Shown piece after piece: positions 6,973 through 50,423 of a stretch of 64,000 nt of DNA. The DNA lies in NCBI RefSeq assembly GCF_000769915.1, contig NZ_JRLV01000003.1, forward strand, positions 186,001 to 250,000, read 5' to 3'. The position numbers and the translations under genes are program-made. Under the pieces are notes generated by a model. The model was given only the letters and a program-made list of their open reading frames with translations, was not told the origin of the DNA and searched no databases. How positions within the stretch are numbered: the first letter of the stretch is position 1; each line of letters begins with the position of its first letter. This stretch comes from Flavobacterium beibuense F44-8. Lineage in GTDB: Bacteria > Bacteroidota > Bacteroidia > Flavobacteriales > Flavobacteriaceae.

Positions 6973-7243
6973 CTCAAAACTTCATTTTTAAAGTTTATTT
7001 TAACGATTAAAAATTAAGGAAATTTCTGTTTGAGGCTGTTTTTACAGAATCTCTTTAGTTATTTTTGCTTCAAAAGCTTTTAAAAAATAAAATTCTTTAA
7101 AACTACACTGCCGTAATGTCGCATTATAATGTATTGCATTAACTTTATGACTTTTTACAAATTATGGCTTTCAGGGATGGCTTTTGTGAAATTAAAATCA
7201 AAACTGAATACAAACTAAAAGAAAACTAAACAACCATATTTTA

Positions 7244-21022: not shown

Positions 21023-21125
21023 ACGGAACATCCGTTTTTGTAAAAGCTGATTTATTTTTACTTAATTTGTACAGTATTATTTTAGGCACGCTAATTGCTG
21101 CTTAGTTTAAAAGAACAAAATTGAC

Positions 21126-21827
21126 ATGAAATACCTTTGTACCCTTTTGCTTATACTTTGCCTTACTCCAAAGCTAATAGCTCAGGGTGGCGATAAGCCA
21201 CGCGGAGGTATTGCCATACCACGTGAGGAAAATCCGCAAACGTCACCAGAACCGGAAACTGATGATGAGATTCCTAGTATATTTAGTTTTGAACCTCCAA
21301 AAAAAGAACTTGATCCACGTTTCCAGATTGGGGTTGACAGGACAGACACGTCTCCTATGTCTACTGAAAGTCAGTTTGCTGATAATACAGATCAGTATGA
21401 GGATAGGGTAAAAATTAAAATGGGAGGTGAATCGAATGAAGCCTATCGTGGTGATATGTTCCTGGGTGAGATACGAACCGATGCTGAGTATGTAAACTCT
21501 TTTGCTGCCGACTTTGGTTTACAGGATGGTGACAGGATAAGAATTTGGCTTAACGGCAAAATAGTGATTAGTAATTTTGTGCTTGCAAATAATCCATCAG
21601 CTATACAAATACGACTTTCACCAGGCTTTAACAAAATTGACTTTGAGGCATTAAATCAGGGTACAACAGGTCCAAATACGGCAGACATAAGAATATATGA
21701 TGACAACCGTAAACTCCTTACATCTAATCAGTGGAATCTGGCAACCGGATTTAAAGCCACAGTAATTATAGTTAAGGAAGATAAACCTACCACAACTACC
21801 CCACCAACTACAGATAAATCAGAATAA
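21126..21827 (+). CDS. Secreted protein of unknown function
   Basis: A 233-residue protein with a signal peptide (about residues 1-20, ending IAQ), a low-complexity Pro/Glu-rich linker (residues 22-65) and a compact beta-rich domain (about residues 85-220) containing GDMFLGEIRTDAEYV and DGDRIRIWLNGKIV. The C-terminus is a Thr/Pro-rich tail. I do not recognise the family. The domain pattern of a short linker plus beta-sandwich suggests a periplasmic or cell-surface protein. It is a single gene between GNAT and the ABC-F gene and ends at a shared terminator. Confidence 0.75.
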   Translation: MKYLCTLLLILCLTPKLIAQGGDKPRGGIAIPREENPQTSPEPETDDEIPSIFSFEPPKKELDPRFQIGVDRTDTSPMSTESQFADNTDQYEDRVKIKMGGESNEAYRGDMFLGEIRTDAEYVNSFAADFGLQDGDRIRIWLNGKIVISNFVLANNPSAIQIRLSPGFNKIDFEALNQGTTGPNTADIRIYDDNRKLLTSNQWNLATGFKATVIIVKEDKPTTTTPPTTDKSE

Positions 21828-21848
21828 TAATATTTAATTACAGCATAT

Positions 21849-21877
21849 AAAAAAGCCCTCTTAATGAGGGCTTTTTT
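21849..21877. terminator. Bidirectional terminator before ABC-F gene
   Basis: Stem AAGCCCTC / GAGGGCTT, 5-base loop, A-run on one side and T-run on the other, between converging genes. Confidence 0.87.
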
Positions 21878-21891
21878 AGTTTATTTATCTG

Positions 21892-23565
<1,674 letters not shown>

Positions 23566-47820: not shown

Positions 47821-48345
47821 ATGGATTTTACAAAATTTATTGACGTACTGGCATATACACTCCCTTCAATAGTAGTAGGACTTGTAGCCTACTATTTTTT
47901 TGATGCACAACGCAAAAACGAAGAAAGCCGCCGTCGCTACCTTATTCACAAAGAAGCACAAAAAAATGCTATGCCACTGCGACTACAGGCATATGAAAGA
48001 CTGGTACTTTTCCTTGAAAGAATTAACCCTTCGAAACTGCTTATAAGAATTGCTCCCCAATCATCTAACAAACATGATTATGAAGAATATGTAATTGCTC
48101 AGATTGAGCAGGAATACGAGCACAACCTCACACAACAAATTTATGTTTCTGCCGAAAGCTGGGACATTATCACTACTGCAAAAAATGCTACTATTCAAAT
48201 GATACGCAAAACTAACATGAGCGAAAAGGTAGATAGTGCCAACAAACTAAGAGAAGTTATACTTACCGATTTGTTTGACACACAAAGCCCAAGCAGTATT
48301 GCTGTGGCTTACCTAAAAAATGAAGTAGCCGAAATGTGGCAGTAA
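47821..48345 (+). CDS. Conserved membrane-anchored protein of unknown function
   Basis: A 174-residue protein with one N-terminal membrane helix (about residues 8-27, LAYTLPSIVVGLVAYYFF) followed by a charged cytoplasmic helical domain (QRKNEESRRRYLIHKEAQKN onward) with conserved-looking stretches QAYERLVLFLERINPSKLL and LTQQIYVSAESWDII. I recall this as a Bacteroidota domain of unknown function (possibly DUF7935), without certainty. Its terminator lies just before the cobalamin riboswitch. Function unknown. Confidence 0.8.
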   Translation: MDFTKFIDVLAYTLPSIVVGLVAYYFFDAQRKNEESRRRYLIHKEAQKNAMPLRLQAYERLVLFLERINPSKLLIRIAPQSSNKHDYEEYVIAQIEQEYEHNLTQQIYVSAESWDIITTAKNATIQMIRKTNMSEKVDSANKLREVILTDLFDTQSPSSIAVAYLKNEVAEMWQ

Positions 48346-48366
48346 TGCCAACTTACAATATTTTAC

Positions 48367-48393
48367 AAGGCATTCTTTTCAGGATGCCTTTTT
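48367..48393 (+). terminator. Terminator upstream of the riboswitch
   Basis: Stem AAGGCATTC / AGGATGCCTT (one G-T pair), loop TTTTC, then T-run. It separates the preceding gene from the riboswitch transcript. Confidence 0.8.
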
Positions 48394-48397
48394 ATTT

Positions 48398-48405
48398 TAT
48401 ATTTG
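48398..48405 (+). promoter_or_regulatory. Putative -7 box (TATATTTG) of riboswitch transcript
   Basis: Fits TAnnTTTG and lies just before the first conserved riboswitch bases, so transcription would begin near 48411. No TTG at -33 (this region is the terminator stem). Confidence 0.55.
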
Positions 48406-48409
48406 CCGA

Positions 48410-48604
48410 AAGGTTTTGCTTAACGCAAATTAATAGGGAATCGTGTGTAAATCACGGGCTGTCGCGCAACTGTAAAGTACAAAACGGTTTTATCGTAGTA
48501 AACCACTGCTGCATTTAGCGGGAAGGGCGATAAAATGTACAAGCCAGGAGACCTGCCTTACTAAATAATGACTATGCTTTCGCGGTTAAAGTGACGTCCG
48601 GTAA
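48410..48604 (+). ncRNA. Cobalamin (B12) riboswitch
   Basis: Conserved core elements appear in order: AGGGAATCGTG at the start of the core, CACGGGCTGTCGCGCAACTGTAA in the middle (position 48473 onward, with the family's GCAACTGTAA), and the B12 box GCCAGGAGACCTGCC at 48543-48557. The RNA binds adenosyl- or methylcobalamin and turns off downstream genes. It lies directly upstream of the COG2102/DUF71 gene, after its own -7 box. A short hairpin ACTCC-TTTTT-GGAGT at 48609-48623 and a second CTCC at 48647-48650 can compete for the same GGAG and might be the expression platform. Confidence 0.92.
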
Positions 48605-48673
48605 TTGTACTCCTTTTTGGAGTGTAATACTGTGCCTTCATTTTATCTCCGTAAAAGCTTAAAAAATATACAC

Positions 48674-49372
48674 GTGACGGAGAACACACAAAAAACGTAT
48701 TTTAACTGGAGTAGCGGTAAAGACAGCGCACTTGCTCTTCATTACCTGTTACAGGATAAAAACTATAGTGTAGGCAGTCTGCTTACATCTGTAAATTCAC
48801 ATTATGATCGTGTTAGTATGCACGGATTACGTAAAGAACTTTTACTTCAGCAAATTGAAGCCATAGGGATACCAGGTACGACTATAGAGCTTCCGCTTCA
48901 ACCTACCAACGTGGAGTATGAAACGATTATGAGAAATAAGGTTGAACAACTAATTAGTGAAGGATACACCACTGCTGCCTTTGGCGATATTTTTTTAGAA
49001 GACCTTAAAGTATACAGGGAAAAACACCTGGAACCTTATGGTATAAAAGCAGTTTTCCCATTATGGAAAAAAGATACTAAAGAACTATTAAAGGAATTTA
49101 TAGATCTTGGCTTTAAAACCATAACGGTTTGCGTAAACGGTACGAAACTGGATAAATCATTTGTAGGTCGTGTTATAGATCACGATTTTATAAATGAACT
49201 ACCCGAAGGTGTTGATCCATGTGGTGAGAACGGAGAGTTCCATACCTTTTGCTTTGGTGCTCCTTACTTTAAAAAACCTATAGATTTTACCATAGGCGAA
49301 ACGATTTACAGAGAATACGATAACCACGGTACAAAAACCGGATACTGGTTTTGCGATTTGATTCCACAATAA
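48674..49372 (+). CDS. COG2102/DUF71 ATP-pyrophosphatase, probable B12 salvage
   Basis: A 232-residue cytoplasmic protein of the PP-loop ATP-pyrophosphatase superfamily, with the SGKDS loop (NWSSGKDSALALHYL), SMHGLRKELLLQQIEA and, near the C-terminus, GENGEFHTF. The group includes eukaryotic and archaeal Dph6 (diphthine-ammonia ligase). Bacteria lack diphthamide, and comparative work (de Crecy-Lagard and co-workers) predicted a B12-salvage role for a bacterial subgroup often under B12 riboswitches; the riboswitch here fits that. GTG at 48674 is the best start, because no ATG precedes the conserved motif; a TTG at 48605 and GTG at 48632 lie in the riboswitch platform. Annotation as diphthine-ammonia ligase is misleading here. 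Followed by a thioesterase 15 bases later. Confidence 0.85.
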   Translation: MTENTQKTYFNWSSGKDSALALHYLLQDKNYSVGSLLTSVNSHYDRVSMHGLRKELLLQQIEAIGIPGTTIELPLQPTNVEYETIMRNKVEQLISEGYTTAAFGDIFLEDLKVYREKHLEPYGIKAVFPLWKKDTKELLKEFIDLGFKTITVCVNGTKLDKSFVGRVIDHDFINELPEGVDPCGENGEFHTFCFGAPYFKKPIDFTIGETIYREYDNHGTKTGYWFCDLIPQ

Positions 49373-49387
49373 ATAACCATCATAAAT

Positions 49388-49771
49388 ATGACATCTGAAG
49401 TAAGAATAAAACTATCGGAAACCCGAATTTTTAAAGCGGTTTTCCCAAACACAACAAATCATTACGATACTCTTTTTGGAGGTACCGCCATGCACCTTAT
49501 GGACGAGGTTGCTTTTATAACTGCTACCCGCTACAGCCGTCAGCGTATGGTAACAGTAAGTAGTGACCGTATCGATTTTAAGAAACCTATCCCTGCAGGC
49601 ACCATAGTAGAGCTTATAGGAAAGGTTACCTATGTGGGAACTACCAGTCTTAAAGTACGTGTAGAAATATATGTAGAACAGATGTATGAAAACACAAGGG
49701 AAAAAGCAGTAACCGGAGAGTTTACTTTTGTCGCTATAGATGAAAATAAAGTCCCTGTAAAAATAGTTTAA
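49388..49771 (+). CDS. Acyl-CoA thioesterase (hotdog fold, YciA-like)
   Basis: A 127-residue hotdog-fold protein of the BACH/YciA type, which hydrolyses acyl-CoA to free acid and CoA as a hexamer. Motifs are NHYDTLFGGTAMHLMDEVAF (the Asn and Asp/Glu of the active site) and SSDRIDFKKPIPAGTIVELI. It lies 15 bases after the COG2102 gene and most likely shares its riboswitch-controlled message, which is unexpected for a thioesterase. A terminator follows. Confidence 0.9.
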   Translation: MTSEVRIKLSETRIFKAVFPNTTNHYDTLFGGTAMHLMDEVAFITATRYSRQRMVTVSSDRIDFKKPIPAGTIVELIGKVTYVGTTSLKVRVEIYVEQMYENTREKAVTGEFTFVAIDENKVPVKIV

Positions 49772-49773
49772 TT

Positions 49774-49805
49774 AAAAGGCATCCTTCCATCGGATGCCTT
49801 TTTTG
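49774..49805 (+). terminator. Terminator after thioesterase
   Basis: Perfect 11-base stem AAAAGGCATCC / GGATGCCTTTT with a 7-base loop, then T-run. It ends the B12-riboswitch unit. Confidence 0.9.
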
Positions 49806-49832
49806 TTTATGTTTGTTTTATAAAACATTATC

Positions 49833-50423
49833 ATGAAAAAGATATTTACTGTCTCTCTTATTTTTTTATGCCTTAGTTCGACTTTTGCCCAAAAAATATA
49901 TCATAACAAAGGTTTTGGTATTACTATCGAAATACCGCAAACCTGGTGGGAAGATAACCGTAACGGATTCCCTGCCGAAATTGAACTAAGCAAAAGCGAA
50001 CGTAAAAAAATACTGGATGACAGTAACTCGGTTTTCCTAACCCTGTTTTATGACAGAGAAACCATCAAAGAAGGTGGTAACTACATTCCTAAAATGCAGT
50101 TTAACGTAGCCAGCAATTATGAAAAAGATTTTAAAGTGTTGCTGAAAGCCACCGAGAACAACGTTAAAATACAGAAGAAATTCCAACCTGATTATAAACT
50201 GGTTAAAAAACCGAAAGAGGTAAAAATTGCAGGTATTAAGAGTATAGCCTATGTAGCTACCTACTCCATGATGGTAAACGGAAAAACTACAACCATACGT
50301 AGTTTTACCTATGTTATCCCTTATAACAATTATGTTTTTCATCTTAATTTTACCGATGAGATAAATGGAAAAGACCGCTCTAAAGAGTTTGAAGCAGCAG
50401 TAAAAACTATTAAAATAGGATAA
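49833..50423 (+). CDS. Small secreted protein of unknown function
   Basis: A 196-residue protein with a signal peptide (about residues 1-19, ending FAQ) and a beta-rich mature domain that includes HNKGFGITIEIPQTWWEDN and RSFTYVIPYNNYVFHLNF. It resembles PsbP/DUF1795-type folds, which have similar spacing of a Trp and a C-terminal Tyr/Phe strand; this is a weak resemblance. Function unknown. It begins 27 bases past the B12 unit's terminator and ends 7 bases before the small frameshifted gene. Confidence 0.75.
   Translation: MKKIFTVSLIFLCLSSTFAQKIYHNKGFGITIEIPQTWWEDNRNGFPAEIELSKSERKKILDDSNSVFLTLFYDRETIKEGGNYIPKMQFNVASNYEKDFKVLLKATENNVKIQKKFQPDYKLVKKPKEVKIAGIKSIAYVATYSMMVNGKTTTIRSFTYVIPYNNYVFHLNFTDEINGKDRSKEFEAAVKTIKIG

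Follow-up and report, generated by a model that had tools for sequence, protein, structure and literature searches.

A cobalamin riboswitch in front of a DUF71/COG2102 gene and a thioesterase-like gene in Flavobacterium beibuense F44-8

Introduction

The DUF71 (COG2102) family of PP-loop ATPases contains a subgroup that has been tied to vitamin B12 since 2012, and here we describe a member of the family that stands directly behind a cobalamin riboswitch in Flavobacterium beibuense F44-8. The gene is followed by one for a thioesterase-like protein and lies in a 64,000-nucleotide stretch of contig NZ_JRLV01000003.1 (positions 186,001 to 250,000), referred to below as the window.

The split of the family and its tie to B12 are already known (Biol Direct 2012; PMC3541065). 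The available parts of that paper assign Dph6 as an amide-forming ligase and set apart a DUF71-B12 subgroup marked by the motif ENGEF/YH, in which 75 of 102 members adjoin B12 transport genes and 18 of 102 adjoin cbiB, such proximity not being required of each member. The same parts propose DUF71-B12 as a substitute for CbiZ or as another route of pseudo-B12 salvage. In cobalamin riboswitches, L5 of the aptamer pairs with L13, the loop of a hairpin further downstream. The accessible text of PMC10653944, on a different member of the class, gives the consensus of L5 as UCCCG and reports three of the L5–L13 pairs to be the functional ones. The open-licence literature yielded neither an experimental study of DUF71-B12 nor a paper joining DUF71 to a cobalamin riboswitch; PMC5481537 names DUF71 only in its reference list. 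Members of DUF71-B12 are at risk of annotation as diphthine–ammonia ligases.

The DUF71 gene described here probably does something other than feed B12 salvage, because the bacterium lacks the salvage steps that the DUF71-B12 family was thought to feed. As far as our literature searches go, the riboswitch-controlled unit, its flipped kissing-loop pair and a division of the family into two clades with diagnostic residues are new, as is the occurrence of DUF71 mostly in genomes of the sampled family without the enzymes of its proposed role.

The riboswitch and the two-gene unit

At gathering scores, the cobalamin riboswitch RF00174 is the single Rfam match in the window. The match spans the whole model (1–189) and scores 97.7 bits (E 3.7e-23; gathering score 31.5), in agreement with a preliminary description of the locus, made from the sequence, which had read a full cobalamin riboswitch and a PP-loop DUF71/COG2102 gene downstream of it. 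The latter matches PF01902 with 120.1 bits (cut-off 23.2). After its stop at 49372 a gap of 15 nt leads to the gene for the thioesterase-like protein of 127 residues, and terminator-like hairpins flank the whole unit (Table 1). The same riboswitch–DUF71–thioesterase unit is present in F. rakeshii (L033), F. beibuense (L034) and a further genome of the genus (G248; L232). With the thioesterase gene 3' of DUF71 in four of four units, the earlier assignment of the riboswitch to the DUF71 gene, and perhaps to the thioesterase, holds for both. The ratio dN/dS is 0.016–0.091 for the two genes where computable (0.016–0.026 for the thioesterase), and for the majority of pairs across the two species groups dS is close to 1 or higher; judged from these ratios, both genes are under purifying selection.

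The first-listed start of the DUF71 reading frame is TTG at 48605. Because the sequence 5' of GTG 48674 carries insertions and deletions that are not multiples of three among the four species, yet the GTG and the bases after it (GTGACGGAGAAC) are identical in all four, GTG 48674 rather than the TTG is probably the true start.

The window holds 69 open reading frames of at least 90 amino acids, and 53 of their proteins were scanned against Pfam, the other 16 being mostly overlapping frames. None of the 53, ten of which matched no family, gave a match to another B12-related family, as the preliminary description had said, and none is a B12 transport protein or CbiB encoded near the DUF71 gene; the link to B12 is the riboswitch. 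The gene, called 'lone' in that description, is so within the window but not in the genome, where a second cobalamin riboswitch lies on another contig, 5' of a btuB-type receptor gene beside btuFCD-type genes.

The kissing loop of the aptamer was compared over 45 riboswitch hits, made up of those near DUF71 genes and the genome's second riboswitch, a set that does not hold every riboswitch of each genome. L5 was readable in 42 of the 45 hits, two of these being pieces of one riboswitch (L220). The L5/L13 pair is CCCG/CGGG in 38 of the 42 and CGCG/CGCG in the four DUF71-linked riboswitches, a difference of one base pair altered on both sides. L5 and L13 are complementary in all 42, in a comparison whose script favours hairpins that complement L5. 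Judged by its sequence, the riboswitch upstream of DUF71 looks functional.

About 80 nt separate the P13 hairpin from the GTG of DUF71; in the leader of this genome's btuB gene (L103) an ATG follows within about 10 nt. Many flavobacterial btuB leaders have an ATG directly after the P13/L13 hairpin. No intrinsic terminator was found on the plus strand between aptamer and start codon in a scan of 48200–50000, and folding of the whole leader (z −1.52) gave no convincing structure. The input to RNAalifold, four sequences, mixed leader and coding sequence, and only its small hairpin was retained. As a separate observation, a duplicated uptake locus (L187) carries two cobalamin riboswitches on the same strand (505–701 and 7047–7231), each 5' of a btuB-type receptor gene, and in between a pair of genes from one further family.

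The DUF71 protein

The DUF71 protein carries the PP-loop SSGKDS and the motif CGENGEFHTF, and at E 0.001 has no Pfam match besides PF01902, hence no CbiZ domain (PF01955). Against the Dph6 equivalog TIGR03679 it scores 80.9 bits, far below the cut-off of 197.3; the Dph6 motif EGGE/D-x-E was not found in the protein, and ENGEFH stands in its place. On both grounds the function of Dph6 (diphthine–ammonia ligase, EC 6.3.1.14) was rejected, and the preliminary description was right to warn against that annotation.

The predicted structure (pLDDT 95.2, pTM 0.91) is closest to archaeal Dph6-type structures, the best matches in Foldseek (E 2e-16 to 6e-13). With VIA-align these superpose with Z of 23.1–25.8 over 198–208 residues, whereas QueC reaches Z 11.4 and other PP-loop enzymes are likewise far lower. 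Residues D181, C183 and H190 are invariant in an alignment of 57 rows. In a larger set of 203 DUF71 genes (three duplicates and three short pieces dropped; L059, L158, L169, L195 and L225 included), D181 and H190 occur in all 203 and C183 in 201, replaced by Ala in L089 and by Ser in L124, both clade-b proteins (see below) of an aroQ-linked clade and neither of them included in the 57-row alignment. In two archaeal Dph6-type structures His, Ala and Glu align with these three positions.

Cobamide capacity of the genome and its relatives

Two cobalamin riboswitches lie in the window's genome (3.8 Mb, completeness 99.99). At the second, a TonB receptor gene of btuB type is followed by a DUF5074 gene, and BtuF-, BtuC- and BtuD-like genes are divergent. 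The genome further encodes a PduO-type adenosyltransferase, the B12 domain of MetH and methylmalonyl-CoA-type mutases at two loci. CbiB, CobA/BtuR, CobS and CbiZ gave no match in the genome (CobU was not searched for), and the organism looks like an importer of complete cobamides. The salvage of incomplete corrinoids, to which the preliminary description had looked, does not fit a genome without a match for CobS, CbiB, CbiZ or CobA/BtuR.

Two side observations concern these loci. A 1177-residue frame with a methylmalonyl-CoA mutase domain (contig C19 of this genome, G000; 21066–22748) stands apart from a mutAB-like pair on C23. The DUF5074 gene 3' of btuB is seen at L103:9016–10053 and at L066:5938–6978, the latter just under the cut-off, and presumably resembles the genes for the BtuG surface proteins of Bacteroides.

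A family sample comprised 120 genomes, one per genus. DUF71 occurs in 48 of them, including a decayed piece (G014; L102, in no gene count), a copy interrupted by one stop (G001) and another truncated at the end of its contig (G079). All 48 carry a cobalamin riboswitch, as do 104 of the 120 (p 0.0002 for the co-occurrence), and all 48 carry a PduO-type enzyme, found in 109 of the 120. CobS is present in 12 of the 48 and CbiB in five, and 36 have neither; CbiZ is found in none of the 120 genomes, and CobA gave two weak matches. DUF71 as a missing corrinoid adenosyltransferase was rejected, since with a PduO-type enzyme in all 48 there is no such gap for it to fill. A second sample, of the genus, has DUF71 in 102 of 199 genomes and a riboswitch in 194; G188 and G299, with DUF71 and no riboswitch found, are incomplete assemblies (92 and 68%). 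The searches for riboswitches over many genomes used stricter filters, and the riboswitch places of the genus sample are those among the matches listed.

Two clades of DUF71 and their gene neighbourhoods

Trees were built from 83 proteins (after three exact duplicates and four short fragments had been dropped) and, as a quick tree, from 197 (after one short piece had been dropped); they hold the relatives found in this analysis and not the cluster-2 sequences of PMC3541065. Loci were taken with flanks of about 4.5 to 7 kb per side, some contigs ending early, and riboswitches in them were detected with a DNA profile made from nine riboswitches, not with the covariance model. Neighbours were named from the look of their sequence, their order and, for some members, Pfam matches. 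For L042, L047, L053 and L122, four rows of the tree, the label btuD rests on a general ABC-ATPase family, and these genes may belong to other transporters.

The family splits into a clade a, with cobU, cobT, cobS and btuFCD-type genes, and a clade b that contains the gene in the window. D110 and R115 are present in 177 of 177 clade-b genes, and all 26 clade-a genes have E115 with other residues at 110. The nearest relatives of the window's gene within clade b are L033, L034, L232, L231, a gene of F. cerinum (L035) and one of a Pedobacter metagenome-assembled genome (L036). The next group consists mostly of an S41 peptidase–DUF71 pair running towards riboswitch–btuB, plus three Cyclobacteriaceae genes. 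Other clade-b genes lie in the order riboswitch–btuB...cobU–DUF71–cobT–cobS (L052), near a riboswitch, btuB and cob genes (L059), in the order DUF71–btuF–btuC–btuD (L113) or, on a long branch of unsure place, behind btuB and a DUF5074-like gene (L066; 26.5 bits). In L111 a thioesterase gene whose product is 78.5% identical to that of the window abuts a clade-b DUF71 gene beside riboswitch–btuB, and because of this the pairing of DUF71 with a thioesterase extends, as far as the sequences tell, beyond the four species. F. cerinum (L035) and L231 have kept DUF71 with no thioesterase adjoining; a degenerate riboswitch in F. cerinum was considered and rejected, none being found even at a lax threshold.

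A riboswitch lies within 5 kb of 17 of 43 clade-b genes in the family sample, 7 of 34 among named records and 1 of 100 in the genus sample; the corresponding counts for clade a are 6 of 6, 2 of 2 and 14 of 18. Of the 17, 15 go back to a single inherited arrangement, the others being L113 and the window's gene, and a binomial probability for the 17 is not readable as that of 17 independent events. The link of the homologues to B12, on which the preliminary description had made its reading depend, is frequent in the family sample, mostly as one inherited arrangement, whereas nearly all clade-b genes of the genus sample lack a riboswitch within 5 kb, which speaks in part against that reading. Most of these clade-b genes lie near genes for DUF7935, an M1 peptidase and recG (names taken from the window's genes), with no B12 gene in the locus. 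A riboswitch directly upstream of DUF71 was seen in 4 of the 203 genes, namely in the four riboswitch–DUF71–thioesterase units.

Two neighbours were noted in passing. In 17 rows of the 83-protein tree, clade-b DUF71 has an S41-type peptidase gene no more than 300 nt away, mostly beside riboswitch–btuB (for example L112:4978–7199, with S41 and PDZ domains, and L081:5573–7784); that such a peptidase might free protein-bound B12 is only a thought. In L125, L138 and other loci of the genus, clade-a DUF71 is flanked on one side by cobU and on the other by a long gene (median 558 amino acids) with a nitroreductase-like start, which from its first residues looks like a BluB–CobT fusion.

Possible functions of the unit

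The reading that we favour, tentatively, is that of a riboswitch-controlled two-gene operon in an importer of complete cobamides, whose DUF71 protein amidates a carboxylate of an imported or damaged corrinoid when B12 is low. The riboswitch, the unit and its conservation, the predicted fold, the conserved residues and the lack of a match to the salvage enzymes searched for are observations; for the substrate, the reaction, the direction of control and the role of the thioesterase we infer the following. When adenosylcobalamin is scarce the riboswitch would permit expression of both genes, the direction suggested by its class. The clade-b DUF71 protein would then bind ATP in the manner of PP-loop enzymes and activate the carboxylate for amide formation, keeping scarce cobamides usable rather than building new ones, and the thioesterase may release the CoA bound in acyl-CoAs, which would accumulate when B12-dependent mutases stall. 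PP-loop chemistry, in which a carboxylate or carbonyl group is activated as in Dph6, points to a side chain of the corrinoid on which an amide would be formed. The amidation raised in the preliminary description may be right. Two observations favour a corrinoid substrate: several lineages have clade-b genes among their btu and cob genes, and clades a and b have the residues of the B12 subgroup in common. Proximity of clade-b genes to a riboswitch, btu or cob genes is observed in the S41–DUF71 clade, in L052, L059, L066 and L113, and in the group of the window's gene.

Several findings weigh against this reading. In the genus sample only one clade-b gene out of 100 is found within 5 kb of a riboswitch, and 16 tree rows show the order aroQ–DUF71 without a B12 gene. 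The near-btuB genes of the S41 clade represent one inheritance and not 15 events; the base of clade b is not resolved by the tree, and the count of separate ties to B12 is not fixed. The co-occurrence of DUF71 and riboswitch falls to 48 of 48 against 53 of 58 genomes (p 0.06; sizes sorted by hand) once genomes below 2.2 Mb are set aside. The amide-forming step leans on homology to Dph6, with which identity is about 25% and whose proposed catalytic Glu is a His here; the roughly 80 nt from P13 to the GTG may fit several modes of control.

A more specific form of the favoured reading, which we regard as quite unlikely, is that clade-b DUF71 proteins would be cobalamin repair ligases, restoring side-chain amides, or an equivalent, on damaged imported cobamides at the expense of ATP. 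It would place the enzyme under a B12 riboswitch or beside uptake genes in bacteria unable to assemble cobamides and, if true, would add a repair step for the vitamin B12 cofactor. We know of no cobalamin repair ligase, and a literature search on related terms found no paper on a cobalamin repair enzyme.

Of the alternatives, the one that survives best, although we think it less than probable, is that the DUF71 protein does not act on a corrinoid at all and belongs to a response to failing B12-dependent enzymes, like the B12-independent isozymes that are found under B12 riboswitches. The thioesterase in all four units hints at acyl-CoA metabolism, as does its close relative in L111; the genome has two mutase loci, and in the genus sample B12 genes are missing from the neighbourhood of most clade-b genes. 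Such a role sits less well with the clade-b genes among cob and btu genes in L052, L113 and L066, with the DUF71 genes of F. cerinum and L231 that stand without an adjoining thioesterase, and with D181, C183 and H190, which are common to clade a of the cob clusters.

It is improbable, in our judgement, that the protein replaces bacterial CbiZ, which would turn adenosyl-pseudo-B12 into adenosylcobyric acid to be rebuilt by CbiB in a salvage or remodelling route. The clustering with btu and cbiB genes and the anti-correlation with CbiZ in bacteria given in the available parts of PMC3541065 speak for this role, as do the absence of CbiZ from all 120 genomes of the family sample and the position of clade a within cobU–cobT–cobS clusters. 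However, the window's genome has no match for CbiB or CobS; CbiB is missing from 43 of the 48 DUF71-positive genomes, both from 36, and CbiB even from four of the six family-sample genomes with clade a (G021, G051, G059 and G084). Without CbiB and CobS, known enzymes could not convert cobyric acid or cobinamide to cofactor, so a CbiZ-like role misfits the gene, barring substitutes for CbiB and CobS that went unrecognised, and one that feeds CbiB was rejected here on the grounds of this genome and the 36. A PP-loop ATPase would also be odd as a hydrolase, a point made by a referee in the accessible text of PMC3541065.

A cysteine-dependent PP-loop reaction on a corrinoid, thiolation or a covalent thioester formed through C183 and H190 instead of plain amidation, is a long shot. 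H190 is found in 203 of 203 genes and C183 in 201, while the two archaeal Dph6-type structures have neither. In Foldseek the Dph6-type chains are followed first by the sulfur-inserting NcsA (E 8.1e-5), and LarE and ThiI are among the weaker structural matches. On the other hand, the Ala and Ser of L089 and L124 imply that the Cys is not indispensable across the family, and the sulfur-inserting enzymes reach Z of about 8–10 against 23–26 for Dph6. Similarly far-fetched is a capture of the riboswitch for another role, for example that of the thioesterase, with DUF71 as a passenger: the direct riboswitch is limited to a group of four species among 203 DUF71 genes, but DUF71 is the first gene of the unit and conserved (dN/dS 0.016–0.091), and clade-b genes lie near riboswitches elsewhere without a thioesterase.

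The genome set separates the role of DUF71 from cobamide assembly. Clade-b genes live with uptake genes, an adenosyltransferase and B12-dependent enzymes and without a match for CobS or CbiB, which removes the standing hypothesis for clade b and leaves two options: a step on complete imported cobamides, or a non-corrinoid step that is useful when B12 is short. With one leader, one gene and one partner, the riboswitch unit is a simple test system.

Other features of the locus

The coordinates of the features are collected in Table 1. The promoter box claimed in the preliminary description can be seen by eye at 48398–48405, where we presume a likeness to a box of the type TAnnTTTG; it was not returned by a two-box pattern with one fixed spacing. 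Matches to sigma-70-type promoters near the unit number five, against a mean of 5.0 in shuffled sequence, and terminator-like sites four, against 1.2 ± 1.3, both in a scan of 1.8 kb. Upstream open reading frames affect expression behind B12 riboswitches in Mycobacterium tuberculosis, according to the available part of PMC11260477; the identity of the short frame in four species could stem from the P13/L13 hairpin alone.

Table 1. Features of the riboswitch–DUF71–thioesterase unit (positions in the window).
Feature	Position	Strand	Basis
Terminator-like hairpin at the 3' end of the upstream DUF7935 gene	48367..48390	+	10-pair stem, then T-rich tail
Cobalamin riboswitch aptamer RF00174	48394..48574	+	97.7 bits; genome-wide search returns identical position
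-7-like promoter box TATATTTG	48398..48405	+	by eye from the sequence
L5 loop bases CGCG (usual CCCG)	48463..48466	+	identical in 4/4 DUF71-linked riboswitches
Possible short upstream open reading frame, 8 codons and stop, overlapping P13/L13	48568..48594	+	identical in 4 species
P13 hairpin with L13 bases CGCG (48581–48584), kissing-loop partner of L5	48575..48593	+	comparison of readable hits
Small expression-platform hairpin with compensated pairs	48608..48624	+	2 pairs changed on both sides, 4 sequences
DUF71/COG2102 PP-loop ATPase, clade b, GTG start, ENGEFH motif	48674..49372	+	PF01902, alignments, fold
Hotdog (4HBT) acyl-CoA thioesterase-like protein, second gene	49388..49771	+	PF03061, 68.1 bits
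Terminator-like hairpin at the end of the unit	49774..49802	+	11-pair stem, then T-rich tail

Comparison with known systems

CbiZ and CbiR belong to families other than DUF71. Genes for both of these remodelling hydrolases lie, like DUF71-B12 genes, near corrinoid salvage genes (for CbiR, in the accessible part of PMC7733943), but the products of CbiZ and CbiR require CbiB or CobS, which are unmatched in the window's genome. Dph6 (PF0828, PDB entries 3rjz, 3rk0 and 3rk1; PH1257, 2d13) shares with the protein described here a fold that superposes over nearly the whole chain (Z 23–26) and an ATP motif of the type SGGKDS; it differs in that the two are only about 25% identical, that His replaces the Glu of its motif, that D181 and C183 are not found in it and that the present protein falls below the TIGR03679 cut-off. 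The riboswitch has the aptamer, B12 box, P13/L13 hairpin and kissing loop of the RF00174 riboswitches in front of btuB, whereas its leader has CGCG/CGCG in place of CCCG/CGGG and a distance of about 80 nt from the hairpin to the start codon. The closest system is the DUF71-B12 subgroup in the available parts of PMC3541065, with which the window's gene shares the PP-loop ATPase, the motif ENGEF/YH and ties to B12 genes in part of its clade, and from which it differs by having a riboswitch of its own, by its position apart from btu and cob genes and by a genome with no match for CbiB or CobS.

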